In this document: in pieces, positions 18,072 to 35,750 of the stretch
How positions within the stretch are numbered: the first letter of the stretch is position 1
How the letters are laid out: each line of letters opens with the position of its first letter
From: Pseudomonadota bacterium
Lineage (GTDB): Bacteria; Pseudomonadota; Alphaproteobacteria; Rhodospirillales; Magnetospirillaceae
Reading direction: 5' to 3'
Length of the DNA stretch: 64,000 nt
Assembly: GCA_021847015.1 (NCBI GenBank)
Contig: JAJZVW010000011.1
Coordinates: 1-64,000, forward strand
Notes under the pieces: model-generated
Database searches by the model: none
What the model saw: the letters and a program-made list of their open reading frames with translations, nothing else
What the model was told of the DNA's origin: nothing
Made by a program: the position numbers and the translations under genes

Positions 18072-20117
18072 TCACGGCACCGACGATGTATCGTAGGCCA
18101 TCATGGACTGAAGGAGCGTGGAAGTTTGATTGGCCTGCGAGATCGACGATTCCAGGCTGCCGTACTGAATCAGCAGGAAGTTTTCGTAATTGTTCATTTC
18201 CACCGTCAGACTCGACACCTGCGCTTGCCAGTTCGCATCCTGGCTGACCAGATTGTCGATGTTGATGGTCTGGATCGAACCGAAATTGGGATCGGCATAG
18301 TTCGTCGTCGTCTGGTAGAGCTGATCGCCGATGCCTTGGGTGACGTCGGCAGTAATGGTTTCGCTTGTCGTTCCCGAGTAGTTGAACGTCAAGCCGGCAT
18401 AGGGCGTTCCCGTGTTTCCGGTGATGACGCCGCCGGTCTGGGTGAAGCTTGCGCTGGCGTCGTTGCCGGAGCCCGTGGGCGTCAGGACGCCATTCACGAA
18501 ATTGAGGCTGAAGGTGCCGCTGTACGTCGCATCGGTATGGTCGGCCAGTTGAAGATCGCCGCTGCTGGTGTTCGCCTGATATTCGAACAGGCTTTGGATC
18601 TGAGAAAAATTATTGGTGAGCGCGTTCGTCAGCGTGGCGCTGTCGATCTGCAGCAGGTTGTTCTGGTCCATGGTGATGCCGATGGCCCCCAGTGACCATC
18701 CCGTAACCGTCCCGCTGGGCGATCCCGTGGGCGTCTCGTTGACGATGCTGCTCAGCGCGTTCTGAACGGCCGTGTCGGCTTCCCGCAAGGTGGAATCGCC
18801 GAACAACACCGCGTTGGGATTGGCCGTGCCATCGCTCTGGGTGGCGTTGTTGGCGTTCACCCAGGTTTTCCAGTTGTTGTAGGCGGTGACGAAGCTCTGG
18901 ATCGCCGTCTGCACCGAATTGGTATCGGGATTGATGTTCAGCGTGATGGTGCCCGTCTTGTCGGCTTGCAGCAGGTTCAGCGTCACCCCGTTCAACACGT
19001 CGCTGATGGTGTTGGTGCTGCGCTGGATGTTGTTCACCCCATCCACATTCAGAATCGCCGGCTGCGGCGCTTGCAGCAGCGGCGTCGACGACGAGGCGAT
19101 GCCCAGCCCGCTCATGATGCCGTTCGGGTCGGAGGTCACCACCACCGGCTGGCCATTGGACGTGGTTGGCGACAGGACCAGATAGCCGTTCGCATCCGTT
19201 GTCGCCGTCACACCCGTCGTCGCCGACTGGGCGGCGATGTCGCTGGCGATCGTCGCGACGCTGGCCCCGCTGGCTATGCTTATGGCCGTCCCGTTGATGT
19301 AAACCGTCCCGCCGCCGGTAGGGGCCGTATAGGTGCTGGAGTTTCCGGTCGCGCTCCCCGCCAACCCCAGCCCGGTCAATATCGGGTTGCTTCCCCCGGT
19401 TGTGTCGGTCAGGTTGAAGGTCGTATTGGTATCGTTGCCGGTCAACACCAGTTCGTACTGGGAACCCGACGCGACCGTGATCACCTGCGCGCTGACCCCG
19501 GTGGTCGCGCTTTGGTTGTTGATGGCGTTGACGATGTCGCTCAGGCTGTTGGTCGATGCGACGTTGATGGTGGCCGCGGTCTTGCCGGCTTCGCCGATGG
19601 TGAAGGAACCGGTCAGGTTCAACGCGGCGGTGGCGCTGGTGGTTGAAACGCTGCCGCCGATCCGCTCGGCCGTCGCCACCTGTTGAATCGAAATCTGATG
19701 CGCGCCCGTCGTGGTGCCGGCGGCCACGGTCGCCGACATCAGCGAACTCGCGGCGATGGTGTCGCTGTTCGACAGGGTGGCGGTTCGGTTGTCGAAGACG
19801 TCGGTGGAGGACCCCGTGCTGGGATTGGTGACGGTGTCCAAGGCGGCAGCGCTGTTCTCCAGCGTCTGCAGCAGCGACTGCATCTGCTTGTAGGCGGTGA
19901 TATGGGTTTGGTTGTTTATGATTTCGCCGTTGAGCGTGCCGAGCTGCTCTTGATACGGCATCAGCTTCAACTGCACCGCCTGTGCCACAGTCAGGCCGGA
20001 GCGGTCGACCGAGTAACTGGTCAGCAGCGTCGACGGCGTGTTCGTGGTGGTTCCGCCGCTGCTCGACGAACTATAGCCGGTGCTGCCCGACGTGCCGGTT
20101 GTGGACGAGATCGTCAT
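18072..20117 (-). CDS. fliD: Flagellar filament cap protein FliD
   Basis: A protein of 681 residues, long for FliD. The N-terminal coiled-coil region (VAQAVQLKLMPYQEQLGTLNGEI) and the C-terminal one (SLTVEMNNYENFLLIQYGSLESSISQANQ) form the legs of the cap. The centre is Thr/Ser/Gly-rich, with repeated beta modules of the type seen in the exposed D2-D4 domains. It folds exported flagellin at the filament tip. It lies downstream of the flagellin gene and upstream of two fliS genes on the same strand. Confidence 0.95.
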   Translation of the reverse strand: MTISSTTGTSGSTGYSSSSSGGTTTNTPSTLLTSYSVDRSGLTVAQAVQLKLMPYQEQLGTLNGEIINNQTHITAYKQMQSLLQTLENSAAALDTVTNPSTGSSTDVFDNRTATLSNSDTIAASSLMSATVAAGTTTGAHQISIQQVATAERIGGSVSTTSATAALNLTGSFTIGEAGKTAATINVASTNSLSDIVNAINNQSATTGVSAQVITVASGSQYELVLTGNDTNTTFNLTDTTGGSNPILTGLGLAGSATGNSSTYTAPTGGGTVYINGTAISIASGASVATIASDIAAQSATTGVTATTDANGYLVLSPTTSNGQPVVVTSDPNGIMSGLGIASSSTPLLQAPQPAILNVDGVNNIQRSTNTISDVLNGVTLNLLQADKTGTITLNINPDTNSVQTAIQSFVTAYNNWKTWVNANNATQSDGTANPNAVLFGDSTLREADTAVQNALSSIVNETPTGSPSGTVTGWSLGAIGITMDQNNLLQIDSATLTNALTNNFSQIQSLFEYQANTSSGDLQLADHTDATYSGTFSLNFVNGVLTPTGSGNDASASFTQTGGVITGNTGTPYAGLTFNYSGTTSETITADVTQGIGDQLYQTTTNYADPNFGSIQTINIDNLVSQDANWQAQVSSLTVEMNNYENFLLIQYGSLESSISQANQTSTLLQSMMAYDTSSVP

Positions 20118-20365: not shown

Positions 20366-21199
20366 TTACGACTGGATCAGCGTAAGCAGTTCCTGCGGCA
20401 TCTTGGCGGCTTGCGACAGGGCGGCGACCGAGGCCTGAGTCAACACGTCCGCCGAAGACAGCGCCGACTTTTGGGCGGCGACGTCCGCGTCCATGATGGT
20501 CGAGTTGGCGGCCGTCACGTTTTGCAGATTGGTTGACAGGCTTTGGGCGACGAAGTTGAACTGCGACTCATAGGCGCCGAGCGAGGCGCGTCCCTTGGTC
20601 AGGGTGTTCATCGCCGCCGAGAGCGTGCTGATCATGTTCGAGGCGTCGCCGATGACCGTCAGGTCGCCCGTGACATTCAGGCCGGTGGTGCCGGCGGTAA
20701 AGGTGCCGAGGGTGACGCCGATGGTGTCCGTGGCGGAGGACCCCACCAGGAAGTTCACGCCGCCCGAGAAGGCGCTGGTCCCATCCAGCAGCGACATGCC
20801 CGAATAGCGGGTGCCGCTGGCGATGTTGTTGATTTCCGTGCTGAGTTGCGCGAATTCGACCTGGATGTCGGCCGAGCGCTGCGTGTCCGTGACGTTGCCC
20901 GAAGCGGCCTCGGTCGCCAGCGCCATCATGCGCTGAAGGATGTTGCCGATGGTGGACAGGCCGCCGTCGGCCATCTGCAGGATCGAGTTGGCTTGCGCCG
21001 CGTTGGTCTCGGACTGGGTGAGGGCGGCGATATTGCCCTGCAGCTGGGTGGCGATGGCGAGGCCCGCGGCGTTGTCCGACGCCTGGACGATGTTGGAGCC
21101 GGAGGCCAGCTTGGCCAACGCGGCCGACTGGTTGGCGGAGTTCAGGTTCAGATAGCGGAGCGCCGCGTTGGCGGCGACGTTGGTCGTAATGACGGGCAT
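20366..21199 (-). CDS. fliC: Flagellin
   Basis: A short flagellin of 277 residues. The N-terminal D0/D1 region (VITTNVAANAALRYLNLN ... LASGSNIVQASDNAAGLAIA) and the C-terminal one (DVLTQASVAALSQAAKMPQ, then LLTLIQS) are both intact. The centre is short and rich in Ser, Thr and Gly, which offers sites for O-glycosylation. The ATG at 21199 is preceded by AAAGGAG. It is encoded beside the eight-gene TPR-glycosyltransferase array, which is the natural candidate to modify it. The neighbouring fliD and fliS genes complete filament assembly. Confidence 0.96.
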   Translation of the reverse strand: MPVITTNVAANAALRYLNLNSANQSAALAKLASGSNIVQASDNAAGLAIATQLQGNIAALTQSETNAAQANSILQMADGGLSTIGNILQRMMALATEAASGNVTDTQRSADIQVEFAQLSTEINNIASGTRYSGMSLLDGTSAFSGGVNFLVGSSATDTIGVTLGTFTAGTTGLNVTGDLTVIGDASNMISTLSAAMNTLTKGRASLGAYESQFNFVAQSLSTNLQNVTAANSTIMDADVAAQKSALSSADVLTQASVAALSQAAKMPQELLTLIQS

Positions 21200-21361: not shown

Positions 21362-21976
21362 TTAGCCCAGCGCTTGCTGGACATCCTTCTCGTTGCGGCG
21401 AAGAAAATCGCGGAGACTTTGCCGCCCCCGCTTGAGCAACGACTCGACGGCGGTGACGCTCGCCCCCATCACCTCCGCGATCTCGCCGTTGCTCAAATCC
21501 TCGTAATAGGACAGGATTACCGCCACCCGCTGCTGCGACGTCAGACGCTCCAGCGCGTCCTCGAGGCGCCCGAACACTTGGCGCTTGTGGATGCTGGTCA
21601 CGCTATCCTCGGCACCATCGATGGGTTCGGGCATGTCGTCCAGCCACTCGTTCTTGGGCAAACGCTGGAGATCGATACAGCGATTGACGATCACCCGGTA
21701 CAACCACGTCCCGAATTTCGCGCGGCCCGACTGCCAATTCTGCCGATGGACCCACGCCTTGACGAAGGCGTCCTGGGTGACATCGTCGGCATCGGCGGGA
21801 TTTTTCAGAATCCGCAGCGCAAGGGCATAGGCGCGGTCGATATGCCGCTCCACGAGAGTCCGGTAGGCCTCGGCATCGTCCGCCCGAATCCGGTCAAGCA
21901 ACTCCTCGTCCGCCAGGGCCGATATCGGCGGCGGCGAATCGAGTTCGGTGACCGTGGACGCCATACCCTTTTCCAT
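21362..21976 (-). CDS. ECF-type RNA polymerase sigma factor
   Basis: A protein of 204 residues with region 2 (DAEAYRTLVERHIDRAYALA ... DADDVTQDAFVKAW) and region 4 (ALERLTSQQRVAVILSYYEDLSNGEIAEVMG and a helix-turn-helix ending VESLLKRGRQSLRD). This is the sigma-70 family ECF/SigK-like type. No anti-sigma gene adjoins it. It lies directly upstream of flagellin in the same orientation, so it may be cotranscribed with it or may control it. Start at 21976 follows GAAGGAACGG; Met5 is an alternative. Confidence 0.9.
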   Translation of the reverse strand: MEKGMASTVTELDSPPPISALADEELLDRIRADDAEAYRTLVERHIDRAYALALRILKNPADADDVTQDAFVKAWVHRQNWQSGRAKFGTWLYRVIVNRCIDLQRLPKNEWLDDMPEPIDGAEDSVTSIHKRQVFGRLEDALERLTSQQRVAVILSYYEDLSNGEIAEVMGASVTAVESLLKRGRQSLRDFLRRNEKDVQQALG

Positions 21977-22534: not shown

Positions 22535-24115
22535 ATGGTCGACGTCTTGCCCACCGACAGCTTCGCTGCGGGCATTGCCGAAGCCCGCAGCCAGGTATCG
22601 GCGGGAAACGTTGCCGCGGCCATCGAAATCCTTGGGCGGCTCATCCGGGGCCGACCCGGCAATCCCGAAGCTCTTCGTCTGCTGGGATCGTTGGCCGAAC
22701 GCTTGAACAAGCCGGAGGATGCCGCGTCCGTCTACCGCGTTCTGGTCCAGGCCGACCCGTCGAATCCGGAACATCTTCGCGCTCTCGGGCACGCCCTCGA
22801 AAAGGCGCGGGACTGGAAGGGTGTGGAGGAATGCCGGCGCAAACAACTGGCGCACGCCCCCGCGGATTACGACGCTTGGATTTCACTGGCGGATTCCTTG
22901 CACAAACAGGAACGCTTTCACCACGCACTGGAGGTCTTGGAGACCGTCCGAAAAATCTTTCCGGGGGATCACCGGCCGCTTCTGAAGGCCGCCAGCTTCT
23001 ATCGCGACCGCAACCGCTACCAAGCCGCCGAGGCCATTTGCAAGCCGTTGGTGCGCGACCATCCCGCCGATCCCGACGTCTGGATCAGTGCCGGCGTCAA
23101 TCACCATGCCATGGAACGCAACGACGAGGCGGAAGCCTGCTTCCGCCGTGCCCTGGACATCGACCCGTCCAGCGTCAACGGCCATTTCGCCCTGGCGTTC
23201 CATGTGCTGTCGCTCGGCCGTTGGCGCGAGGGGTTCGAGGAATTCCGGTGGTGCACCAAGCTCGCAGAGGTCGCCGCCGACTTAGCCGCCATGCCGGAAT
23301 GGACCGGCGGCGAGCCGCCGGGAACCCGCGTCATCGTGTGGAGCGGGCAAGGATACGGGGATGCCATCCAGTTCCTTCGCCATGTCCGGAACATCGCGGC
23401 AAACGGCCACAAGCCCGTTCTCTACATACCCAGGGCGCTGGTGCGCCTTGCCGAAACCGTTGCCGGCGCCGCTTCCGTCCATGCCAGCGCCGATCCTCGG
23501 CCGGACGGCAACGTCCAGATCGCGCTTCACAACCTGCCCCATGCGGTCGGCGTCCGCGACCCTGGGGAAACCTGGCCGGGACCGTATCTGACGCCCCCTC
23601 CCCAACCCGTCCTGCCGCGGAGCGGAAAGTTGGCTGTCGGTCTCACCTGGGCAGGACGGCCCGATTTCGCCAACGATTCCAACCGCAGCATACCGCTTTC
23701 CGCGCTTGCCCCCCTGCTCGACGTGCCCGGAATCCAGTGGTTCGGACTGCAAACCGGCAAACGGGCGTCGGAAGCCGCCGGCACTCCATGGGCGGAGGCG
23801 CTCCACGACCTTTCGCCGCGGATCACGGACTTCGCCGACACCGCGGCGCTGGTCGGTGGGCTCGACCTCGTCATCTCCGTGGACACCTCGGTCGCCCATC
23901 TGGCCGGGGCGCTTGGAAAGCCCGTGTGGATCCTGCTGCCGCGCCGGTGCGATTGGCGCTGGCTGCGGCATGGCGCAAGCACAGGCTGGTATCCGAGCGC
24001 CCGCCTGTTCCGGCAGGCCACATTCGGCTATTGGGCGCCGGTGGTGGCGGAAATGGCGGAGGCGCTCGCGGCCATGGCCGAGACACGCCATCAATCCGCA
24101 CCGCTGGGTGCATAA
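22535..24115 (+). CDS. TPR-glycosyltransferase, array copy 1 (divergent)
   Basis: This encodes 526 residues. The N-terminal 235 residues are TPR helices (for example AIEILGRLIRGRPGNPEALRLL). The C-terminal domain resembles GT9/heptosyltransferase GT-B folds, with WSGQGYGDAIQF, VGLTWAGRPDF and the donor-site-like VDTSVAHLAGALGKPVW. It is the most diverged member: it has FRW instead of EWRRR and an RRCDWRW variant of the terminal block. The ATG at 22535 follows GGAGAGTTGAGGGG. As first gene it may be the ancestral copy. The FlmG-like flagellin glycosyltransferase role is inference. Confidence 0.85.
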   Translation: MVDVLPTDSFAAGIAEARSQVSAGNVAAAIEILGRLIRGRPGNPEALRLLGSLAERLNKPEDAASVYRVLVQADPSNPEHLRALGHALEKARDWKGVEECRRKQLAHAPADYDAWISLADSLHKQERFHHALEVLETVRKIFPGDHRPLLKAASFYRDRNRYQAAEAICKPLVRDHPADPDVWISAGVNHHAMERNDEAEACFRRALDIDPSSVNGHFALAFHVLSLGRWREGFEEFRWCTKLAEVAADLAAMPEWTGGEPPGTRVIVWSGQGYGDAIQFLRHVRNIAANGHKPVLYIPRALVRLAETVAGAASVHASADPRPDGNVQIALHNLPHAVGVRDPGETWPGPYLTPPPQPVLPRSGKLAVGLTWAGRPDFANDSNRSIPLSALAPLLDVPGIQWFGLQTGKRASEAAGTPWAEALHDLSPRITDFADTAALVGGLDLVISVDTSVAHLAGALGKPVWILLPRRCDWRWLRHGASTGWYPSARLFRQATFGYWAPVVAEMAEALAAMAETRHQSAPLGA

Positions 24116-24119
24116 CGCC

Positions 24120-25493
24120 ATGACCGCCAATCAGGACGACTTCTATACTTCGGTGGGGATGGAACTCTATAAGATGGGCGAGATCGAGCCGGCCATCACC
24201 GCCTACGGGATAGCCCTCGCCCATGATCCCGGACGTTCCGATACCTTCGTGAACCTTGGTGTCGCCCTCGAAGCGGCGGGTCGACCGAGTGCCGCGGCCG
24301 CATGCTACCGTCAGGCCGTTGCCGTTGAGCCTATGAACGCCGTGGCCCTTCACAACCTTGGCCTAGTCCTGCTGGGGCAGGGACAGGTTGAAGAAGCCCT
24401 GCCCTACTTGCGCCGGGCAACCACCGCCAACCCGACACTCCCTCAGAGCCATGTGGAAAGCGGCAACGCGCTGATGGCCATGAGCCGGACGGAGGAGGCC
24501 ATCCTCGCCTATCGGCGCGCTGTCGACCTTGCTCCGGACATGCCCGAATACCGCTTCAATCTCGCGCTGGCTTTGCTGGCGAACGGCAGGCTGAAGGAAG
24601 GGTTCCAGGAATACGAATGGCGGCGGCGCATCGACAAATACCGCCGCGACGTTCCCGCGCCGGAATGGGACGGCGAGCCGCTGCGGGGACGCACCATCGT
24701 GCTGCATGCCGAACAGGGGTTCGGCGACGCCCTGCAATTCGCCCGGTACGCGCCGCTCGTCGCGGCCAAGGGCGGCCGGGTCATCTTGTGGGTGCACCGC
24801 GCCCTGGTGCGCCTGCTCGCCACCGTCCCCGGCGTGACGGCGGCGGTCGCCAGCCAGCCGCCTCACTCCGCTTTCGACGTCCATGCGCCGCTGATGAGCC
24901 TGCCCCATCTGTTCGGCACGGAACTCGACACCGTTCCCGGCGACGTTCCGTACATCTTCCCCGACCCGGATGCCGCAGCCGCCTGGGAGGAACGGCTGGC
25001 CGGCCTGCCGGGGCTGAAGATCGGCCTGGTATGGGCGGGAAATCCGCGCCTCCATGACAGGGACGCCGCCGAGATCGATCGCCATCGGAGCCTGCGCCTG
25101 GAGCAATTCGCGCCGCTGGCCGCGATAAGCGGCGTCACGTTCGTCAGCCTCCAGAAAGGCGATTCCACCGGACAGGCCAAGGCGCCCCCCGCCGGCCTGC
25201 GCCTGGTGGACTGGATGGACGAGGTGACCGACTTCGCCGACACCGCCGCGCTGGTCGCCAACCTCGACCTCGTGATTTCCGTCGATACGTCGGTCGTCCA
25301 TCTGGCCGGCGCCATGGGCAAGCCGGTGTGGATATTGTCGCGCTTCGACGGATGCTGGCGCTGGCTGGAAAATCGCGACGATTCCCCCTGGTATCCCACC
25401 GCGCGGCTGTTCCGCCAGCCCGCCCTCGGGCAATGGGATCCCGTCCTTCTCAAGGTCGCCGACGCGTTGCGGCAATGGGCGGCGGCGCCATGA
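24120..25493 (+). CDS. TPR-glycosyltransferase, array copy 2 (shortest TPR)
   Basis: This encodes 457 residues, the shortest copy. About five TPR units occupy residues 1-163 (PAITAYGIALAHDPG, AAACYRQAVAVEP and similar). The GT-like domain runs from EYEWRRR at 164 with HAEQGFGDALQFARYAP, GLVWAGNPR, SLQKGD and VDTSVVHLAGAMGKPVW, then the FDGCWRWLENRDDSPWYP block shared by nearly all copies. The ATG is four bases after the copy 1 stop. Its own stop overlaps the start of copy 3 (ATGA). Cytoplasmic, no signal peptide. Confidence 0.88.
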   Translation: MTANQDDFYTSVGMELYKMGEIEPAITAYGIALAHDPGRSDTFVNLGVALEAAGRPSAAAACYRQAVAVEPMNAVALHNLGLVLLGQGQVEEALPYLRRATTANPTLPQSHVESGNALMAMSRTEEAILAYRRAVDLAPDMPEYRFNLALALLANGRLKEGFQEYEWRRRIDKYRRDVPAPEWDGEPLRGRTIVLHAEQGFGDALQFARYAPLVAAKGGRVILWVHRALVRLLATVPGVTAAVASQPPHSAFDVHAPLMSLPHLFGTELDTVPGDVPYIFPDPDAAAAWEERLAGLPGLKIGLVWAGNPRLHDRDAAEIDRHRSLRLEQFAPLAAISGVTFVSLQKGDSTGQAKAPPAGLRLVDWMDEVTDFADTAALVANLDLVISVDTSVVHLAGAMGKPVWILSRFDGCWRWLENRDDSPWYPTARLFRQPALGQWDPVLLKVADALRQWAAAP

Positions 25494-27250
25494 TGGACGT
25501 CGCCGTCCTGCTGCTCGAACAGGCCCGGCGTCTGGAGCGCGACGGCCTCTTGCCCCAGGCGGAACTGGTCTACCGCAAACTCCTGGCGGACGATCCCGGC
25601 CAAGCCGGAGCCGCGCACGCCCTAGGCAATCTTCTGTACGAGCGGGGCGCCTTCTCCGATGCGGCCGAATACTACCGCCAAGCGCTCGGGCGTCGCGCCG
25701 ATTATCCCGAGGCCGCCTACAACCTCGGCAACGCGCTCGGCGGGCTCGGCCGATGGCTCGACGCGGCGGCGGCCTACGACGACGCCATCCGCCTCAACCC
25801 GGATTTCGCCGAAGCTCGCCTCAACCGGGCGGGCACTCTCCACAGGCTGGGACGCCACGGCGAAGCCGCCGACGAGTGCCGCCGGGTGATCGATCTGCGC
25901 GAAGACCTTCCCGACGCATACAACATCCTTGGCGCCAGCCTTTATTCACAAGGCGATTTCAATGCCGCCGTCACCGCACTCCGCCAAGCAATCGCGCTCT
26001 GCCCGGATCACGCCCTCGCCCACAACAATCTGGGCATGGCCCTATCTTCCCTGGGGCGGTTTACGGAAGCGGCCGAGGCCCACCGGAGGGCTCTCGCTCT
26101 CGACCCCGACATGGCGAGCGCCTACACCAACCTCGCCCGCCCCCTCTACCAACTGGGCCGCATCGACGAAGCCCTCGCAGCGGCATCCATGGCGACCGCC
26201 CTCGCCCCCAAGTCTCCCGAAGCCCACAACAACCTGGGAACGGCGCTTTACGCCTCGGAACGCAACGCCGAGGCTGCGGCCGCCTTGGAAACCGCGATCG
26301 CCATGGTCCCCGACTTGGCCGGGATCCACCACCATTACGGCATGGTCCTGCTCAAGCTCGGCCGACTGGCCGAGGGTTGGGCACAATACGAGTGGCGGCG
26401 CCGGATAGAGAATTTTTGCCGCCAGCTTCCAGGGCCCCAATGGCGGGGCGAGCCGCTGGGAGGAAGGACCATCCTGCTGCATACCGAGCAGGGATTGGGC
26501 GATTGTCTGCACTTCGCCCGCTATGCGCCGTTGGTGGCGGCCGCAGGCGGACGCGTCGTTCTGTGGGCGGATGAGCCGCTCGTCCGTATCCTGCGCACGC
26601 TTCCCGGTGTAGCCGAGGTGGTGCCTTTGGAGACCATTCCTCCCACGTTCGACGTCCACCTGCCGCTGATGAGTCTGCCGCATGTATTCGGCACCGAGTT
26701 GCACTCCATTCCCGCCGACATTCCCTATCTCCTCCCCGACGCGGCGGCGGCCAAAGCTTGGGGTGACCGGCTGACCGCCCTGCCTGGTCTGAAGGTCGGG
26801 CTGGTCTGGGCCGGCGGCCTCCGCCCTTACGACCCCCTGGCCAATTTCCGAAGCCTCGGCCCCGACGGTTTCGCCTCTCTGGCCTCCACCCCGGGAGTCA
26901 GCTTCGTCAGCCTTCAGAAGGGGCCGCGCGCCGAACCGGCCGAGGCCGCCCCTACCGGGCTGCGTCTGACCGATTGGATGGACGAAGTCTCCGACTTCGC
27001 CGACACCGCGGCGCTGATCGCCAACCTCGACCTCGTCATCACCGTCGACACCGCCGTCGCCCATCTGGCCGGCGCCATGGGCAAACCGGTATGGGTCCTG
27101 CTGCGTTTCGGCGGCTGCTGGCGCTGGCTGGAAAGCCGCGACGATTCCCCCTGGTATCCCACCGCGCGCCTGTTCCGCCAGCCCGCCCTCGGGCAATGGG
27201 AGCCCGTGCTTCTCGCGGTGGCCGACGAATTGCGCCGGCTGACGGCATAG
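25490..27250 (+). CDS. TPR-glycosyltransferase, array copy 3
   Basis: This encodes 586 residues, starting MMDVAVLLLEQARRLERD, an N-terminal cap shared with copies 5 and 8. About nine TPR units run to residue 298, followed by the GT-like domain. The domain has a variant block: PYDPLANFRSLGPDGF instead of the RRRSLRLEQF form, VDTAVAHL instead of VDTSVAHL, and LRFGGCWRWLESRDD. Copy 6 shares the SLGPDGF variant, which suggests exchange between copies. The start overlaps the copy 2 stop by 4 bp. Confidence 0.88.
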   Translation: MMDVAVLLLEQARRLERDGLLPQAELVYRKLLADDPGQAGAAHALGNLLYERGAFSDAAEYYRQALGRRADYPEAAYNLGNALGGLGRWLDAAAAYDDAIRLNPDFAEARLNRAGTLHRLGRHGEAADECRRVIDLREDLPDAYNILGASLYSQGDFNAAVTALRQAIALCPDHALAHNNLGMALSSLGRFTEAAEAHRRALALDPDMASAYTNLARPLYQLGRIDEALAAASMATALAPKSPEAHNNLGTALYASERNAEAAAALETAIAMVPDLAGIHHHYGMVLLKLGRLAEGWAQYEWRRRIENFCRQLPGPQWRGEPLGGRTILLHTEQGLGDCLHFARYAPLVAAAGGRVVLWADEPLVRILRTLPGVAEVVPLETIPPTFDVHLPLMSLPHVFGTELHSIPADIPYLLPDAAAAKAWGDRLTALPGLKVGLVWAGGLRPYDPLANFRSLGPDGFASLASTPGVSFVSLQKGPRAEPAEAAPTGLRLTDWMDEVSDFADTAALIANLDLVITVDTAVAHLAGAMGKPVWVLLRFGGCWRWLESRDDSPWYPTARLFRQPALGQWEPVLLAVADELRRLTA

Positions 27251-27260
27251 GGGGCGAACG

Positions 27261-29246
27261 GTGTCCTCCGCCCTCTCTGAGCAAATGATCCTGTCGGCGG
27301 TCCAGCACCATCGCGCCGGGCGCCTGGACACGGCCGAAGAGCTTTACCGCAGCGCGCTCCGGCTGGACCCGGGACACGTTCTCGCCACCCATCACCTGGG
27401 GATCGTCGCCTTCCAAACCGGCCGATTGGAGGACGCGGCCCGTCTTTTCCGGCGGACGATAAGCCTCAAGCCCGATTACCCGGAGGCTTACAGAAATCTC
27501 GGCGCGCTCTTGCGGGCGCAGGGGCGTGGCGGCGAAGCCATCATCTATTACGAGCAGGCGGCGCTGCTGAACCCTCGCGATCCCGACCTCCATGGCGACA
27601 TGGGGGCCCTGCTCCGCGACCTGGGGCGCGTGGACGAAGCGGCGGCGGAATATCGCCGCGCCATCGCGCTGCGCCCCGATTTCGCCGAGGCGCACAACGA
27701 TCTCGGCAGCCTGCTCCGCGACCGGGGCGACTTGGCGGGGGCGCTGGAATGCTATCGGCGGGCCACAGGCTGCCGGCCGCAATTATCCGAGGCCAGTTAC
27801 AACCTTGGCCTCACCCTCGACGCGTTGGAGCGGCTGGACGAGGCGAGGGACGCCTACCGCGCCGCCATCCGCGCAAGGCCCGATTTCGTCGAGGCCCATA
27901 TCAACCTGGGCGCGGCCTTGCAACGGTCAGGGCGGCTTGCCGAGGCGATCTCGGAATACCGGGAGGCGCTGCGGCATGCGCCCGATCATCCCACGGCACT
28001 GACAAATCTCGGCGCCGCCCTCGACGATACCGGACAGTCCATCGACGCCCTGGAGGCGCACGACCATGCCCTGGCCGTCGCCCCCGGCTTCGCGCTGGCC
28101 CATGTCAATCGGGGAGCGACATTGGCCCATCTGGAGCGTGACGCGGAGGCTGTCGAGGCATACCGCGAGGCCATCCGCCACGATCCCGGGAACGCCGAAG
28201 CACACGGCAACCTCGGTTTGGCGCTGACAAATCTGGGAAGGACCGCGGAAGCCGTCCAGGCCCATAGGCAAGCCGTCGCCCTCGCCCCGGACAACCCCAA
28301 GCACCACCATTGGCTTGGCATGGCGCTGCTGTTGACCGGCGCCATGACGGAGGGTTGGGCCGAGCACGAATGGCGAAGGAAACTCCCCGGGTTCCAACGC
28401 GATCTTCCCAAGCCGGCCTGGACGGGAGAAGCGCTCGGAGGGAAGACGATCCTGCTGCACGCCGAGCAGGGATACGGAGACACCCTGCACTTCGTCCGTT
28501 ACGCGCCGCTGGTGGCGGCCACGGGCGGGCGGGTGGTCCTGTGGGTGCCCGACCCGCTGATCCGCCTGCTCGCCACCGTGCCGGGCGTGGCCGAAGCGGT
28601 TTCCGACCGTCCGCCCGCCTCCGCGTTCGACGTCCATCTGCCGCTGATGAGCCTGCCCCATGCGTTCGGTGCGACGCTTGACACGATCTCCGCCCCAATC
28701 CCCTATCTGTCGCCCGATGGGGAAGCCGTCGCAGCCTGGGGCAAGCGCGTAGCCCGATTGGCCGGCTTGAAGATCGGCCTGGTCTGGGCGGGAAACCCAG
28801 GCTATCCGGAAAAGCGCGAGTACCGGATCGACCGGCGCCGGAGCCTGCGCCTGGAGCAACTCGCGCCGCTGGCGGAGATAGACGGGATCACGTTCGTCAG
28901 CCTCCAGAAAGGCGACGCCGCCGGGCAGGCCACGGCGCCCCCCGCCGGCCTGCGCCTGGTGGACTGGATGGACGAGGTGACCGACTTCGCCGACACCGCC
29001 GCCCTGGTCGCCAACCTCGACCTCGTGATTTCCGTCGATACGTCCGTCGCCCATCTGGCCGGCGCCATGGGCAAGCCGGTGTGGATATTGTCGCGCTTCG
29101 ACGGCTGCTGGCGCTGGCTGGAAAACCGCGACGATTCCCCCTGGTACCCCACCGCGCGGCTGTTCCGCCAGCCCGCACCGGGACAATGGGAACCCGTCCT
29201 CATCAAGGTCGCCGACGCCCTGCGCAAACAGGTGGCCGCACCATGA
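27261..29246 (+). CDS. TPR-glycosyltransferase, array copy 4 (longest TPR)
   Basis: This encodes 661 residues, the longest copy, with about eleven TPR units up to residue 367 (repeated patterns such as AAAEYRRAIALRPDFAEAHN and AISEYREALRHAPDHPTALT). The GT-like domain begins at EHEWRRK and has HAEQGYGDTLHFVRYAP, GLVWAGNPGY and VDTSVAHLAGAMGKPVW. It starts with GTG at 27261 after a G-rich stretch and ends in an ATGA overlap with copy 5. Its last four TPRs and GT domain are closest to copy 5. Confidence 0.88.
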   Translation: MSSALSEQMILSAVQHHRAGRLDTAEELYRSALRLDPGHVLATHHLGIVAFQTGRLEDAARLFRRTISLKPDYPEAYRNLGALLRAQGRGGEAIIYYEQAALLNPRDPDLHGDMGALLRDLGRVDEAAAEYRRAIALRPDFAEAHNDLGSLLRDRGDLAGALECYRRATGCRPQLSEASYNLGLTLDALERLDEARDAYRAAIRARPDFVEAHINLGAALQRSGRLAEAISEYREALRHAPDHPTALTNLGAALDDTGQSIDALEAHDHALAVAPGFALAHVNRGATLAHLERDAEAVEAYREAIRHDPGNAEAHGNLGLALTNLGRTAEAVQAHRQAVALAPDNPKHHHWLGMALLLTGAMTEGWAEHEWRRKLPGFQRDLPKPAWTGEALGGKTILLHAEQGYGDTLHFVRYAPLVAATGGRVVLWVPDPLIRLLATVPGVAEAVSDRPPASAFDVHLPLMSLPHAFGATLDTISAPIPYLSPDGEAVAAWGKRVARLAGLKIGLVWAGNPGYPEKREYRIDRRRSLRLEQLAPLAEIDGITFVSLQKGDAAGQATAPPAGLRLVDWMDEVTDFADTAALVANLDLVISVDTSVAHLAGAMGKPVWILSRFDGCWRWLENRDDSPWYPTARLFRQPAPGQWEPVLIKVADALRKQVAAP

Positions 29247-30706
29247 TGGACGTCGCCGCCCTGCTGCTCGAACAGGCCGCGCGTCTCGCGCGCGATGGCC
29301 TGTTGTCCCAGGCGGACCTGGTCTACCGCAAGCTCCTGGCGGACGATCCCGGCCATGCTGCGGCCCACCTTGGCCGGGCGACGGTCCTCCACAGGATGGC
29401 GCGCTACGGGGAGGCCATCGCCGAATACCGGGAAGCCCTCCGGCACGCGCCGAGCCATCCCGCGGCGCTCTCGAATCTCGGCGCCGCCTTGGGGGAATCG
29501 GGACAATCCCTTGCCGCCCTCGCCGCGTTCGACGACGCCATAGCCCTGGCTCCCGACTTCGCCCTGGCCCACGTCAACCGGGCGGCGACGCTGGAGCGGT
29601 TGGAGCGGGATGAAGAGGCCGCCGCGGCATACCGCGAGGCCATCCGCCACGATCCCGGAAACGCCGAAATCCACAGCGACCTCGGCATCACGCTGAAAAA
29701 GCTGGCACGGACCGCGGAGGCCGTGCAGGCCCACCGGCAAGCTGTCGCCCTCGCCCCGGACAACCCGAAATACCACAGCTATCTCGGCATGGTCCTGCTA
29801 TTGGCCGGGGTCATGGCGGAGGGCTGGGCCGAGTACGAATGGCGGAGAAAACTGCCCGAGTTCCAACGCGATCTTCCCAAACCGGCCTGGACAGGGGAAC
29901 CGCTCGAGGGGAAGACGATCCTGCTGCACGCCGAGCAAGGGTACGGCGATATCCTGCACTTCGTGCGCTACGCGCCGCTGGTGGCGGCCACGGGCGGGCG
30001 GGTGGTCCTGTGGGTGCCCGATTCGCTGACCCGCCTGCTTGGCACCGTGCCGGGCGTGGCCGAAGCGGTTTCCATCCGTCCGCCCGCTTCCGTGTTCGAC
30101 GTCCATCTGCCGCTGATGAGCCTGCCTCACGCATTCGGCACGGACTTGGACACCATCCCCGCCAACATCCCCTATCTCTTCGCCGAACCGGCGGCGACCA
30201 AAGCCTGGGGCGAACGGCTGGCCGCCCTGCCGGGCCTGAAAGCCGGTCTGGTCTGGGCGGGGCGGTCTCAAGCAGCGGACGCATATCGCTTCGACCGGCG
30301 CCGGAGCCTGCGCCTGGAGCAATTCGCGCCGTTGGCGGAGATAGACGGCATCACGTTCGTCAGCCTCCAGACAGGCGACGCCGCCGAACAAGCCACGGCG
30401 CCCCCCGCTGGCCTGCGCCTGGTGGACTGGATGGACGAGGTGACCGACTTCGCCGACACCGCCGCGCTGGTCGCCAACCTCGACCTCGTGATTTCCGTGG
30501 ACACGTCCGTCGTCCATCTGGCTGGGGCCTTGGGCAAGCCGGTGTGGATCCTGTCCCGCTTCGACGGCTGCTGGCGCTGGCTGGAAAACCGCGACGATTC
30601 CCCCTGGTACCCTACCGCGCGGCTGTTCCGCCAACCCGCGCCGGGACAATGGGAACCCGCGCTTCTGACGGTCGCCGACGCCTTGCGGCGGCTGGTGGGG
30701 GAGTAA
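29243..30706 (+). CDS. TPR-glycosyltransferase, array copy 5
   Basis: This encodes 487 residues. The N-terminal cap (MMDVAALLLEQAARLARD) is like copies 3 and 8. The following TPR units (AIAEYREALRHAPSHPAAL, then AYREAIRHDPGNAEIH) and the GT-like domain are very close to copy 4. The gene therefore looks like a fusion of a copy 3/8-type front with a copy 4-type rear that has lost about five TPR units. GT-like signatures HAEQGYGDILHF and VDTSVVHLAGALGKPVW are intact. Its start overlaps the copy 4 stop. Confidence 0.88.
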   Translation: MMDVAALLLEQAARLARDGLLSQADLVYRKLLADDPGHAAAHLGRATVLHRMARYGEAIAEYREALRHAPSHPAALSNLGAALGESGQSLAALAAFDDAIALAPDFALAHVNRAATLERLERDEEAAAAYREAIRHDPGNAEIHSDLGITLKKLARTAEAVQAHRQAVALAPDNPKYHSYLGMVLLLAGVMAEGWAEYEWRRKLPEFQRDLPKPAWTGEPLEGKTILLHAEQGYGDILHFVRYAPLVAATGGRVVLWVPDSLTRLLGTVPGVAEAVSIRPPASVFDVHLPLMSLPHAFGTDLDTIPANIPYLFAEPAATKAWGERLAALPGLKAGLVWAGRSQAADAYRFDRRRSLRLEQFAPLAEIDGITFVSLQTGDAAEQATAPPAGLRLVDWMDEVTDFADTAALVANLDLVISVDTSVVHLAGALGKPVWILSRFDGCWRWLENRDDSPWYPTARLFRQPAPGQWEPALLTVADALRRLVGE

Positions 30707-30713
30707 CCGCGGC

Positions 30714-32480
30714 ATGGACCTTTCCGCCCTGCTTCTCGAACACGCCCGGCAATGCGAACGGGCCGGGCAGCCGGCCAAGGCCGAATTCCTCTACCGCCAG
30801 GCGCTCGGCCAGTTCCCGGACATGGCCGAAGCCGCGCACCGGCTTGGAATCATCCTTTGCGGTTCGGGGCGGACGGAGGAAGGGATCGCTTGGCTCCAGC
30901 GCGCTTCGGCGCTGGCCCCCGATGACGAGGTCCTGTGGCGCGATCTGGGCGCGGCCCTGGGGAATTCCGGCCGCACCGAGGAGGCCGCCGGCGCCTTCCA
31001 CCGGGCCGTCACCATCCGGCCCGTTTGTCCCGATGCCTGGACCAACCTGGGAATCGTCCTCGCCCGGCTGGACCGGCGCGAGGACGCCATCGCCGCCTTC
31101 CGGGCCGCGGCCGCCCTCGCCCCAGCGGATTCCAGCGTCCATTGCAGGCTGGGGCGGGCCTTCGAAGAGGCCGGACAATTCGAGGACGCCGTCGAAGCGT
31201 TCCTGCGCGCCGTGACGCTCGACCCCAAATTCGCCCAGGCCCACGACGATCTGGGCACGGCGCTGCGCGGGGCCGGCCGCCCGGCCGAAGCCGAGGCCGC
31301 CCACCGCCTGGCCATCGCGCTCGATCCGGACTTCGCCGCCGCTCATATGAACCTTGGCCTGACCCTCTACGCCTTGCACCGGATGGAGGAAGCGGTCGAA
31401 ACCTCGCGGCGGGCCATCGCCCTCGATCCCGAACACGCCGACAATTACAACAATCTCGGGGCCGCCCTCTACGCGCTGGGCCGGAACGGGGAAGCCGCCG
31501 CCGCGCTGGAGCACGCCCTCGCCCGCAGGCCCGGCCATCCCGGCATCCACCTCAATTACGCCATGGCCTTGTTGCGGCTGGGACGGATGCGGGAAGGCTG
31601 GGCGGAATTCGAATGGCGCCGCCGCACCGAGGCGTATACGTCCTGTCAGAACCTTCCCTGCGCGGAATGGCGGGGCGAGCCGCTGCGGGGCCGCACCATC
31701 GTCCTGCATGGGGAGCAGGGCTTGGGGGATTCCCTGCACTTCGTCCGCTACGCCCCGCTGGTGGCGGCACGGGGCGGACGGGTGGTCGCGCTGACGGCCC
31801 CTCCTCTGGTCCGGCTGCTGGCCACCGTTCCAGGCGTGACTACGGTCGTTTCGGCATTGCCGTACCCGTCCGAATCCGACATCCATCTGCCGTTGATGAG
31901 CCTGCCCCACGTGTTCGGCACTGAACTCGACACCATCCCCGTCGACATCCCCTATGTTTTCCCCGACCCGGCGGAGGTCGAGGCCTGGGGCGGCCGCCTG
32001 GCCGGCCTGCCTGGACTGAAGGTGGGGCTGGTGTGGGCCGGAGGCTTCCGCCCCCACGAGCCGCTGGCCAACTCGCGCAGCCTCGGCCCCGACGGTTTCG
32101 CCGCCCTGGCGGCCATCCCCGGAATCAGCCTTGTGAGCCTTCAAAAGGGTTCCTCCGCCGAGCAGGCCAAGGCACCCACCGCCGGCCTGCGCCTGGTGGA
32201 CTGGATGGACGAAATGGCCGACTTCGCCGACACCGCCGCCCTGGTCGCCAACCTCGACCTCGTGATTTCCGTGGACACGTCCGTCGCCCATCTGGCCGGG
32301 GCCATGGGCAAGCCGGTGTGGATTCTGCTACGCTTCGACGGCTGCTGGCGCTGGCTGGAAAACTGCGGCGATTCCCCCTGGTACCCCACCGCGCGGCTGT
32401 TCCGCCAACCCGCGCCGGGACAATGGGAACCCGTGCTTCTGACGGTCGCCGACGCGTTGCGGCGGCTGGCGGGGGAGTGA
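30714..32480 (+). CDS. TPR-glycosyltransferase, array copy 6
   Basis: This encodes 588 residues. The cap MDLSALLLEHARQCERAG and about nine TPRs (to residue 297) are nearly the same as in copy 7, including 113 exact identical bases near the start. The GT-like domain begins at EFEWRRR and has HGEQGLGDSLHFVRYAP, the SLGPDGF variant shared with copy 3, and VDTSVAHLAGAMGKPVW. ATG at 30714 lies seven bases after the copy 5 stop. Copies 6 and 7 appear to be the most recent duplication. Confidence 0.88.
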   Translation: MDLSALLLEHARQCERAGQPAKAEFLYRQALGQFPDMAEAAHRLGIILCGSGRTEEGIAWLQRASALAPDDEVLWRDLGAALGNSGRTEEAAGAFHRAVTIRPVCPDAWTNLGIVLARLDRREDAIAAFRAAAALAPADSSVHCRLGRAFEEAGQFEDAVEAFLRAVTLDPKFAQAHDDLGTALRGAGRPAEAEAAHRLAIALDPDFAAAHMNLGLTLYALHRMEEAVETSRRAIALDPEHADNYNNLGAALYALGRNGEAAAALEHALARRPGHPGIHLNYAMALLRLGRMREGWAEFEWRRRTEAYTSCQNLPCAEWRGEPLRGRTIVLHGEQGLGDSLHFVRYAPLVAARGGRVVALTAPPLVRLLATVPGVTTVVSALPYPSESDIHLPLMSLPHVFGTELDTIPVDIPYVFPDPAEVEAWGGRLAGLPGLKVGLVWAGGFRPHEPLANSRSLGPDGFAALAAIPGISLVSLQKGSSAEQAKAPTAGLRLVDWMDEMADFADTAALVANLDLVISVDTSVAHLAGAMGKPVWILLRFDGCWRWLENCGDSPWYPTARLFRQPAPGQWEPVLLTVADALRRLAGE

Positions 32481-32487
32481 TCGCGGC

Positions 32488-34263
32488 ATGGACCTTTCCG
32501 CCCTGCTTCTTGAACAGGCTCTGCGCCGCGAACGGGCAGGACAACCGGCCGAGGCCGAATTCCTGTACCGCCAGGCGCTCGGCCAGTTCCCGGACATGGC
32601 CGAAGCCGCGCACCGGCTTGGAATCATCCTTTGCGGTTCGGGGCGGACGGAGGAAGGGATCGCTTGGCTCCAGCGCGCCTCGGGGCTGGCCCCCGATGAC
32701 GAGGTCCTGTGGCACGATCTGGGCGCGGCCCTGGGGAATTCCGGCCGAGACGAGGAGGCCGCCGGCGCCTTCCACCGGGCCGTCACCATCCGGCCCGCTT
32801 TTCCCGACGCTTGGACCAACCTGGGAATCGTCCTCGCCCGGCTAGGCCGGCACGAGGACGCCGTCGCCGCCTTCCGGGCCGCGGCCGCCCTCGCCCCGGC
32901 GGATTCCAGACTCCACCACAGGCTGGGGCGGGCCTTCGAAGAGGCGGGGCAATTGGACGATGCCGTCGAGGCGTTCCTGCGCGCCGTGACGCTCGATCCC
33001 GCATTCGCCCAGGCCCACAACGACCTGGGCACGGCGCTGCGCGGGGCCGGCCGCCCGGCCGAAGCCGAGGCCGCCCACCGCCTGGCCATCGCCATCGATC
33101 CCGGCTTCGTTGCCGCCCGCACCAATCTCAGCGAGACTCTGTACGTCTTGCAGCGGATGGAAGAGGCGGTCGAAACCTCGCGGCGGGCCATCGCCCTCGC
33201 CCCCGAAGACGCCGACAATTACAACAATCTCGGAGCCGCCCTCTACGCGCTGGGCCGGAACGGGGAAGCCGCCGCCGTGCTGGAGCACGCCCTCGCCCGC
33301 AAGCCCGACCATCCGGACATCCACTTTCACTACGCCATGGCCCTGCTGCGGCTGGGACGGATGCGGGAGGGCTGGACGCAATTCGAGTGGCGCCGCCGCA
33401 TCGACAAGTTCCACCGCGAGCTGCCCCGGCCGGAATGGCGGGGCGAGCCGTTAGAGGGACGCACCATCCTCCTTCACGGCGAGCAGGGCTTGGGGGATTC
33501 CCTGCAATTCGTCCGCTACGCCCCGCTGGTGGCGGCACGGGGCGGACGGGTGGTCCTGTGGGTTCCCACGCCTCTGGTACGGCTGCTCGCCACCGTGCCC
33601 GATGTGGCGGAGGTGACCGCCACCCAGCCGGCGCCCCCGGCCTTCGACGTCCATCTGCCTCTGATGAGCCTGCCCCATGTGTTCGGCACGGAACTCGACA
33701 CCATCCCCGCCGACATCCCCTACCTCTTCCCGGACCGGGCCGCGGTCCAAGCCTGGGGCGAACGGGTGGCAGGCCTGCCGGGGTTGAAGGTGGGGCTGGT
33801 CTGGGCCGGCGATTCGCGCCCCCACGACCCCCTGGCGCACCGGGTGGACCGCACGCGCAGCCTCAGTCTCGACCATTTCGCCCTCCTGGCCGGCATCCCG
33901 GGAATCCGCCTCGTGAGCCTTCAAAAGGGGCCGCCCGCCGAGCAGGCCAAGAGACCGCCACCGGGGCTCGAACTCGCGGACTGGATGGACGACATTGGCG
34001 ACTTCGCCGACACCGCCGCGCTGGTCGCCAACCTCGACCTCGTGATTTCCGTGGACACATCCGTCGCCCATCTGGCCGGGGCCATGGGCAAGCCGGTGTG
34101 GATCCTGTCGCGCTTCGACGGCTGCTGGCGCTGGCTGGAACACCGCGACGATTCCCCCTGGTATCCTACCGCGCGCCTGTTCCGCCAGCCGGCCTTAGGC
34201 CACTGGGAACCCGTCCTCCTCGAGGTCGCCGACGCCTTGCGCAAACGGGTGGAGGCGCCATGA
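32488..34263 (+). CDS. TPR-glycosyltransferase, array copy 7
   Basis: This encodes 591 residues with the same TPR count and spacing as copy 6. The GT-like domain differs in its acceptor-side and linker parts (VATQPAPPAFDVHLPLMS-type strand, RTRSLSLDHF block), so copies 6 and 7 are alike in the TPR half but different in the catalytic half. VDTSVAHLAGAMGKPVW and the FDGCWRWLEHRDDSPWYP block are intact. The stop overlaps the copy 8 start (ATGA). Confidence 0.88.
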   Translation: MDLSALLLEQALRRERAGQPAEAEFLYRQALGQFPDMAEAAHRLGIILCGSGRTEEGIAWLQRASGLAPDDEVLWHDLGAALGNSGRDEEAAGAFHRAVTIRPAFPDAWTNLGIVLARLGRHEDAVAAFRAAAALAPADSRLHHRLGRAFEEAGQLDDAVEAFLRAVTLDPAFAQAHNDLGTALRGAGRPAEAEAAHRLAIAIDPGFVAARTNLSETLYVLQRMEEAVETSRRAIALAPEDADNYNNLGAALYALGRNGEAAAVLEHALARKPDHPDIHFHYAMALLRLGRMREGWTQFEWRRRIDKFHRELPRPEWRGEPLEGRTILLHGEQGLGDSLQFVRYAPLVAARGGRVVLWVPTPLVRLLATVPDVAEVTATQPAPPAFDVHLPLMSLPHVFGTELDTIPADIPYLFPDRAAVQAWGERVAGLPGLKVGLVWAGDSRPHDPLAHRVDRTRSLSLDHFALLAGIPGIRLVSLQKGPPAEQAKRPPPGLELADWMDDIGDFADTAALVANLDLVISVDTSVAHLAGAMGKPVWILSRFDGCWRWLEHRDDSPWYPTARLFRQPALGHWEPVLLEVADALRKRVEAP

Positions 34264-35750
34264 TGGAGGTCACCGCCCTGCTGCTGGAACAGGCCGCGCG
34301 CCTTGAGCGCGATGGCCTGTCGCCCCAGGCGGAACTGGTCTACCGCCAGATCCTGGCGGACGATCCCGGCCATGCCGGAGCCGCGCACGCGTTCGGCCGC
34401 CTGCTTCACCGGATGGGACGGATGGACGAGGGACTGGCTTGGCTGCGCCAGGCGGTGGACCTCGATCCCGACGCCTTCGACGCGTGGCATGATCTTGGGG
34501 CGGCGCTGGGTGCGCAGGAGCATCTGGCCGAAGCCGTCCAATGTTTCCGCCGCGCCCTGGCCCTCCGCCACGATATCGCCTCCGGATGGCACAACCTGGG
34601 TTCCGCCCTCAACAAGCTGGAACGCTACGACGACGCGGCGGCGGCCCACAGGCAGGCCATCGCCTTGCAGCCCGATCTCGCCGAAGCCCATTCGGATTTG
34701 GGCGTCGCCCTGTACAAGGGCGGCCGCGCCGTGGAATCCATCGCGGCCTGCCGGGGCGCGGTCACCCTTGCTCCGGCCGTTCCCGAGTTCCACGTCAACC
34801 TGGCGCTCGCGCTGCTGATGGCGGGACACTACGAGGAAGGATTCCGTGAATTTGAATGGCGGCGCCGAACCGCCGCACTCCGTGTTCCCATGGCAGGGGT
34901 GGAGTGGCGCGGCGAACCCTTGGACGGGCGGACGGTCCTGCTGCATGCCGAGCAGGGTTTGGGCGATATCCTCCAATTCGTCCGCTATGCGCCGCTGGTC
35001 GTGGCACGAGGCGGACGGGTGGTGCTGTGGGTGGATCGTCCCCTGGTCCGCCTGCTCGGCACGGTGCCGGGAGTCGCCGAGGTGGCGCCTATCGACGTGC
35101 CGCCGCCGCCGTTCGCGTTTTACCTCCCGCTGCCGAGTCTCCCCCGCGTCCTGGGCACCGCGCTCGGCACCATCCCCGCCGACATTCCCTATGTCCAGGC
35201 GGACTCGGTCGCCGTCGAGACGTGGCGGCGGCGGCTGGCGGATCGTCCAGGGCTGAAGGTGGGACTGGTGTGGGCCGGCGCCCCTCGTCCCCACGATCCC
35301 GTTTCCCACCGCATCGACCACCGGCGCAGCCTGCGGCTGGATCAGTTCGCAGGGTTAGCCGCCATCGCCGGAATCGCGTTGGTCAGCCTGCAAAAAGGCG
35401 ATCCCGCCGCCCAGACGAAGACGGCGCCGCCGAGCCTCCGTTTGGCCGATTGGACCGACGAGATCACGGATTTCGCCGACACCGCCGCCCTGGTCGCGAA
35501 CCTCGACCTCGTGATCTCCGCGGATACGTCGGTGGTTCATCTTGCCGGCGCGATGGGCAAGCCGGTGTGGATCCTGTCCCGCTTCGACGGCTGTTGGCGG
35601 TGGCTGAGCGGTCGCGACGATTCGCCCTGGTACCCCACCGCGCGCCTGTTCCGCCAGCCGGCGCCGGGCGACTGGGAAACCGTGCTGCGGCGGGTCGGCG
35701 AGGAACTCCGCGTCCTTGCTATGAGGGCCACCCGCCGCCAAGCGCCTTGA
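34260..35750 (+). CDS. TPR-glycosyltransferase, array copy 8
   Basis: This encodes 496 residues: the cap MMEVTALLLEQAARLERD, about six TPR units to residue 196, then the GT-like domain with HAEQGLGDILQFVRYAP and GLVWAGAPRPH. The conserved aspartate motif reads SADTSVVHLAG instead of SVDTSVVHLAG, and the FD.H.PLMSLP strand is changed to FAFYLPLPSLP, so this copy may differ in acceptor. The last 32 bp overlap the convergent efflux gene. It is the end of the array. Confidence 0.87.
   Translation: MMEVTALLLEQAARLERDGLSPQAELVYRQILADDPGHAGAAHAFGRLLHRMGRMDEGLAWLRQAVDLDPDAFDAWHDLGAALGAQEHLAEAVQCFRRALALRHDIASGWHNLGSALNKLERYDDAAAAHRQAIALQPDLAEAHSDLGVALYKGGRAVESIAACRGAVTLAPAVPEFHVNLALALLMAGHYEEGFREFEWRRRTAALRVPMAGVEWRGEPLDGRTVLLHAEQGLGDILQFVRYAPLVVARGGRVVLWVDRPLVRLLGTVPGVAEVAPIDVPPPPFAFYLPLPSLPRVLGTALGTIPADIPYVQADSVAVETWRRRLADRPGLKVGLVWAGAPRPHDPVSHRIDHRRSLRLDQFAGLAAIAGIALVSLQKGDPAAQTKTAPPSLRLADWTDEITDFADTAALVANLDLVISADTSVVHLAGAMGKPVWILSRFDGCWRWLSGRDDSPWYPTARLFRQPAPGDWETVLRRVGEELRVLAMRATRRQAP

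Follow-up and report, generated by a model that had tools for sequence, protein, structure and literature searches.

A flagellin-side array of eight TPR proteins with GT9-like heads: candidate flagellar protein glycosyltransferases in a Magnetospirillaceae bacterium

Why would a bacterium carry eight related candidate glycosyltransferase genes in a row beside a flagellin gene? The question is raised by a 64,000-nucleotide stretch of a Magnetospirillaceae genome (here the window; positions 1 to 64,000 of contig JAJZVW010000011.1, assembly GCA_021847015.1), in which eight consecutive, intact, head-to-tail open reading frames (ORFs) on the plus strand, c1 to c8, fill positions 22535-35750 (Table 1). 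Each encodes an N-terminal arm of tetratricopeptide repeats (TPR) followed by a C-terminal glycosyltransferase (GT) domain, the head. The explanation we favor, to which we give about an even chance of being correct, is that the array specifies cytoplasmic enzymes that O-glycosylate flagellar proteins, flagellin being the likeliest of these; the enzymes would share one transfer chemistry not based on nonulosonic acids and be steered by their differing arms. We infer the acceptor, the donor, the activity and the division of labor from sequence, architecture, predicted fold, motifs, genomic context, recurrence and the pattern at silent sites.

A preliminary description of the locus had called the eight genes TPR proteins with GT9/GT-B-like C-terminal domains, and this holds: Pfam places TPR repeats and Glyco_transf_9 (PF01075) in all eight proteins, the motifs GxGD and DT(S/A)xxHLAG are kept in every copy, and internal stops are found in none. 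Note that the PF01075 scores (22.8-27.5 bits against a cut-off of 22) are barely over the threshold and cover only the C-terminal stretch of that profile. Each copy is covered almost in full (4e-118 or better) by a profile of the GT domains, which was itself built from these eight rows. At an E value of 0.001, PF13844 (GT41) is absent from the Pfam matches of all eight proteins; matches to it elsewhere in the genome sit on contigs C11 and C12. Neighboring genes overlap in the letters ATGATG at three junctions (c2/c3, c4/c5 and c7/c8) and are separated by gaps of 4-10 bases at the remaining four.

Since a sequence-profile search of solved structures (A1) returned no match, predicted folds were compared instead. 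Foldseek placed a model of the whole of c7 (mean predicted local distance difference test score, pLDDT, 96.7) with SPINDLY and OGT, in which a TPR superhelix precedes a GT-B domain; a second aligner ranked TPR-only structures on top and OGT next. The GT domain alone (pLDDT 94.4) ranked with GT9 heptosyltransferases at Z 17.6-19.2 (a Veillonella GT9 enzyme 19.2, HepII 18.8, WaaC 17.8), with the protein heptosyltransferase TibC at 15.7; these alignments spanned 235-252 residues at 3.0-3.2 Å and 14-16% identity. UDP-GlcNAc 2-epimerases reached Z 12.3 and lower. As modeled, then, c7 is an OGT-like arm on a heptosyltransferase-like (GT9) head, and the comparison with GT9 and GT41 enzymes that had been proposed for the C-terminal domain predicts a GT-B fold nearest to GT9. 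OGT and SPINDLY (both GT41) have in common with the array the TPR superhelix and GT-B fold, whereas the heads of the array lack PF13844 and are closer to GT9. WaaC (HepI), HepII and TibC (Z 15.7-19.2) are the nearest folds to the catalytic domain, but GT9 heptosyltransferases act on lipopolysaccharide (LPS) and TibC on an autotransporter, acceptors unlike the one proposed here. Moreover, WaaC and HepII, unlike the array enzymes, are not known to have a TPR superhelix, and TibC-type enzymes are iron-containing dodecamers that are compared here with the array by fold alone.

The array sits in a late flagellar gene cluster. The flagellin gene, which the preliminary description had put within 1.4 kb, starts about 1.3 kb from the start of c1, with a gene for a sigma factor of extracytoplasmic function (ECF) type in between. 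(A scan of 10-36 kb for sigma-54-like patterns gave four plus-strand matches, none of them at the head of the array, and was not used.) The genome comprises 77 contigs, its completeness is given as 100%, and among named organisms those closest to it are Magnetospirillum, Telmatospirillum and Azospirillum. Four further matches to the array GT profile lie elsewhere in it, on C36, C4, C73 and C37. The contrast first drawn between one flagellin and eight enzymes stands in part: many enzymes do face few flagellins, but a second flagellin is encoded in the same genome (C70:47889).

How alike are the eight enzymes? The arms range from about 182 to 386 residues, and in the C-terminal GT block any two of c2-c8 share 75-92% identity. 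Measured over the GT domain against c7, c2-c6 and c8 are 73-78% identical and c1 is 47% identical, so that c1 is no close copy of the others. A tree of 86 GT domains groups c2-c7 in a single clade (100/98) and leaves c8 outside it, in a wider group. The c1 domain pairs with that of a TPR glycosyltransferase of relative G008, sited between FliS and a flagellin (100/98, from a tree whose bootstrap had not settled and in which the partner branch is long); the pairing was recovered again in a second tree (100/99). Because its partner is a gene of a flagellar locus, c1 looks like an old enzyme of such a locus, and c2-c8 look like a lineage-specific expansion.

The heads were also compared at silent sites. 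Within the C-terminal GT block, fourfold-site identity is 0.72 among c2-c8, compared with an expectation of 0.45 from codon usage alone; for the same block against other sequences it is 0.45 (the C36 paralogue), 0.54 (C4), 0.52 (c1) and 0.49-0.61 (other lineages). The arms are near silent-site saturation except in c6/c7 and partly in c4/c5. When silent-site identity in arm and block was compared pair by pair, 11 of 21 pairs differed at p < 0.01, the block being the more alike every time; the ten pairs above that value were six with c8 together with c2/c5, c3/c5, c4/c5 and c6/c7. The last is the reverse case, with 152 of 173 sites identical in the arms and 34 of 46 in the block (p 0.03). The same trend appears in 18 modules of Telmatospirillum siberiense (0.68 in the block, 0.50 before it). 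Together with its outgroup controls, this regional contrast supports, without proving gene conversion, the idea that the heads were kept alike, and we read it as probable similarity maintained in the heads while the arms diverged or were exchanged. As a separate observation, the gene at L029:12511-14061 (on the window's own contig, C32, of about 74.5 kb) encodes a protein that shares 55-56% identity with c6/c7 over its first 124 TPR residues but ends in a canonical heptosyltransferase-like GT9 domain, a sign of arm exchange.

One of the nearest known counterparts is FlmG of Caulobacter crescentus (CCNA_01524), whose TPR domain binds flagellin, the acceptor, with pseudaminic acid as donor (PMC7591256). 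Its TPR N-terminus, GT-B C-terminus, flagellar locus and length (596 residues) resemble the array; unlike the array, it is a single enzyme and uses pseudaminic acid. The array is set apart from it here through FlmG-type relatives. With a Caulobacter-like flagellin as bait, 12 of 385 genomes of the class matched, and ten regions were taken from nine of these; five of the ten hold a TPR protein of 569-602 residues that matches the array GT profile (3e-22 to 2e-34), with FlaF or FlbT close by in four (L160, L161, L167 and L168; Pfam-checked in L160 and L161 and elsewhere read from N-terminal letters). In the tree, these five genes, a set found by synteny that does not include C. crescentus FlmG itself, form their own clade (100/100) apart from the array enzymes. 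Where the array carries DT(S/A)xxHLAG, four of them have APTAA and one has GPGIA; PF01075 has no match at E 0.001 in the three that were scanned.

The two types also differ in the company of NeuB (PF03102). In the window's whole genome, NeuB has no match at E 0.001, which extends the earlier report that the window holds no genes for nonulosonic acid synthesis; it is present in all five genomes with FlmG-type genes (the five tested of the nine that were fetched). For this reason a nonulosonic acid donor is unlikely here. Of ten array-type genomes tested, NeuB is absent from five (the window's, G008, G022, G026 and G025), and array-type enzymes therefore do not need it. Taken together with the GT9-like head, the separate clade and the motif that FlmG-type enzymes lack, these findings argue against the FlmG-type mechanism that the preliminary description had drawn on. 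(PF01973, the Maf family, matched in none of six genomes, but no bacterial control gave a match either.) A large sugar locus occupies 41755-64000 of the window and L029:7490-12007, with Glf-like, GalE, aminotransferase, GT9, radical SAM and transketolase-like genes. The same locus has HddA-like and HddC-like genes, whose scores fall short of the family cut-offs, and is a possible donor source. RfaE domain II-like genes, under the cut-off, lie at G008 C97:9760-10173 and G026 C82:6015-6389, on contigs of flagellar TPR glycosyltransferase loci.

Such GT domains recur. They occur in 19 of 21 genomes (the window's own included), at 0 to 17 each; an array of eight was seen in none of the other 20. 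Arrays of at least five were found in Telmatospirillum, an Azospirillaceae metagenome-assembled genome (MAG), Acetobacteraceae, Geobacterales-type genomes and Sporomusa. In T. siberiense, 18 GT domains lie in a row, 14 of them in a single ORF of 7446 codons (5920 of which were also recovered by the ORF lister) and the others in two ORFs with 3 and 1. The order there is a sigma-like gene, flagellin, FliD, FliS, a second FliS-like gene, a GT41-like gene, the array on the other strand, and FlgD. (The T. siberiense genome reportedly has a publication of its own.) In Telmatospirillum CA127, 10 domains share an ORF of 5371 codons next to an FlgE-type gene; in Telmatospirillum SA7853, 7 domains share one of 3650 codons, the array there lying between FliD/FliS and hook genes on a contig without a flagellin. 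In Geomonas anaerohicana, fused genes carrying 3 and 2 domains adjoin flagellin, FlbT and FlaF. Also seen were two very long ORFs at L141:3-13057 (G004 C51), the first of which joins a GT41 domain and a GT9-type TPR glycosyltransferase domain in frame.

Across these genomes, a flagellin lies within about 10 kb of 9 of 19 tallied arrays, compared with 0.35 expected, or of 9 of 24 when five omitted groups of at least three copies are added (G005 C389, G005 C52, G008 C90, G027/L093 and G049/L101, with no flagellin match on their contigs). The tally left out other groups that were of mixed strand, partial or of two copies, G015 C26 and L068 among them, and the flagellin of G025 C10 is a fragment at a contig end. 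Flagellins were called with PF00669 in whole genomes; a single-sequence phmmer search with the window's flagellin had found one in only 3 of 78 loci.

We propose that in the cytoplasm each TPR superhelix would bind a flagellar protein destined for export and the GT9-type GT-B head would then add, before that export, a sugar from a nucleotide sugar other than a cytidine monophosphate-linked nonulosonic acid; our best guess for the donor is a heptose linked to adenosine diphosphate (ADP) or guanosine diphosphate, or a similar sugar. In this scheme c1, as the old enzyme of the flagellar locus, may do a separate job, and c2-c8 would be an amplified second type whose heads are alike and whose arms differ in length and sequence. 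Alike heads suggest one donor type and unlike arms suggest several sites or substrates, so one transfer chemistry may be sent by several acceptor-recognizing arms to several sites or export substrates. The combinatorial or multi-site glycosylation envisaged earlier is thus possible in a narrower form only, that of several sites or acceptors for one type of sugar. A bolder extension, which we hold tentatively and think rather doubtful, is that strings of TPR-GT9 modules form multi-headed machines at the flagellar loci of several lineages, as separate genes here and fused in Telmatospirillum (up to 7446 residues and 14 heads): one chemistry, kept alike by recombination and steered by different arms toward many sites on flagellin or many export substrates, with the number and order of modules encoding the decoration pattern, without nonulosonic acids.

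Flagellin glycosylation guided by a TPR part is already described for FlmG (PMC7591256) and for Maf-1, an enzyme whose TPR part is C-terminal and serves flagellin acceptor and site specificity, and which uses nonulosonic acids (PMC13317340). The latter source also covers Clostridium, with predicted TPR flagellin glycosyltransferases, some carrying GT2 domains; several transferases stand together at one flagellar locus, as in the array, but the part available describes no array of one family (PMC13317340). Our literature search, from which subscription journals and preprints mostly fell outside, found no description of TPR-GT9 enzymes arrayed in tandem, or fused, in a flagellar locus. The specificity of bacterial cytoplasmic protein O-glycosylation is described as poorly understood (PMC7591256), and similar heads on different arms would offer a natural series in which each arm could be matched directly with its sites. 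Should the donor prove to be a heptose or some other nucleoside diphosphate sugar, TPR enzymes would be able to glycosylate flagellin independently of nonulosonic acids. If translated as single chains, the fused ORFs of Telmatospirillum would yield glycosyltransferases of unusual size and a ready test of many linked heads for multi-site modification.

Several observations weigh against the explanation that we favor. Plant NDH-PSI complex chains also reach Z 15.4-16.5 with the GT domain. NeuB is present in five of the ten array-type genomes, strongly in Geomonas, Oryzomonas, Sporomusa and M. fulvum and more weakly in T. siberiense. A domain of HldE for ADP-heptose synthesis (domain II) is encoded on contig C75, and this speaks for a heptose donor, but weakly, because ordinary LPS would need HldE too. 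Contig C70, with the second flagellin, has no GT-profile match. A run-based (Sawyer-type) test for gene conversion over 118 silent codon columns of c2-c8 was not globally significant, with a best global p of 0.19. The nine arrays near a flagellin are not independent, since they fall in four lineages and six are Geobacterales-type; and the 0.35 expected is an approximate guide because only matches listed were counted and the 29 genomes were chosen from 43 that came from loci picked for their resemblance to the window's own GT domain. Finally, 15 of the 24 tallied arrays have no flagellin near, including those of Sporomusa and of Acetobacteraceae, the latter beside GroES/GroEL-like genes. This last count would fit enzymes that act mainly on adhesins, other surface or secreted proteins or polysaccharide, the flagellar neighborhood being incidental, as would the further TPR glycosyltransferases of this genome outside flagellar loci and the sugar genes that fill the window from 41755 on. 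We consider this unlikely given that the arrays are embedded in the flagellar cluster both here and in three Telmatospirillum genomes, and that the Geomonas array adjoins flagellin, FlbT and FlaF.

The eight enzymes might instead act in turn, each adding a different sugar to one oligosaccharide on flagellin. Their side-by-side arrangement and the clearly distinct head of c1 speak for such a pathway, but the likeness of the c2-c8 GT blocks suggests one donor type, and the arms differ more than the heads; we regard stepwise assembly as improbable. A little less probable again is that the copies are redundant recent duplicates kept for dosage and not diversity. The single c2-c7 clade, the widely varying copy number among relatives and the nearly identical arms of c6 and c7 speak for it; set against these, no copy has a stop or a lost motif, nearly all arm pairs approach silent-site saturation, and similar arrays arose in several lineages. 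There is also a very slim chance that the enzymes are FlmG-like nonulosonic acid transferases that place pseudaminic acid or a relative on flagellin: the order of TPR and GT-B, the flagellar locus and the profile matches between the two types are shared, but the clade and motif are different, PF01075 fails on the FlmG-type proteins scanned, and a genome given as complete has no NeuB match.

Table 1. Features of the array, its flagellar neighborhood and fused counterparts (window coordinates unless a locus or contig is named).
Feature	Position	Strand	Remarks
c1	22535..24115	+	TPR glycosyltransferase, 526 residues; most divergent copy; groups with flagellin-locus enzyme of G008
c2	24120..25493	+	TPR glycosyltransferase, 457 residues; arm about 182 residues
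c3	25490..27250	+	TPR glycosyltransferase, 586 residues; start overlaps end of c2 (ATGATG)
c4	27261..29246	+	TPR glycosyltransferase, 661 residues; longest arm, 386 residues
c5	29243..30706	+	TPR glycosyltransferase, 487 residues; overlaps c4
c6	30714..32480	+	TPR glycosyltransferase, 588 residues; arm 88% identical to arm of c7
c7	32488..34263	+	TPR glycosyltransferase, 591 residues; structure modeled
c8	34260..35750	+	TPR glycosyltransferase, 496 residues; overlaps c7; outside c2-c7 clade
ECF-type sigma factor	21362..21976	-	Pfam; between flagellin and array
Flagellin	20366..21199	-	277 residues; PF00669 and PF00700; likely acceptor
FliD, filament cap	18072..20117	-	PF07195
FliS, flagellin chaperone	17557..18018	-	PF02561
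Second FliS	16967..17335	-	PF02561
FlgD, hook cap	15858..16571	-	PF03963
FlgE-type hook protein	14501..15826	-	PF00460 and PF22692
FlgK	11835..13619	-	PF22638
FlgL-like protein with flagellin domains	10917..11786	-	PF00669 and PF00700; named FlgL from its place beside FlgK
T. siberiense fused array	L128 and L129, G053 C22:69421-91761		ORF of 7446 codons, 14 TPR-GT modules
Fused ORFs in two Telmatospirillum MAGs	L130, L132/L133		

Three further features were noted in passing. Four adjacent genes with similar N-termini (MRIFL...) at L029:14291-20000 are apparently another tandem family, two of whose members were scanned without an NCBIfam match. A protein of 807-831 residues is encoded near flagellar genes in three genomes (window 8487-10913 on the minus strand, L132:377-2872 and L142:6054-8477); it is HAD-like in the window only, and the three were likened by the look of their N-termini alone. 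Lastly, four genomes have sigma factor genes that resemble one another next to flagellin or FliD (window 21362-21976, L128:1020-1634, L132:3178-3792 and L142:8649-9212); the Pfam check covers the window's gene alone.

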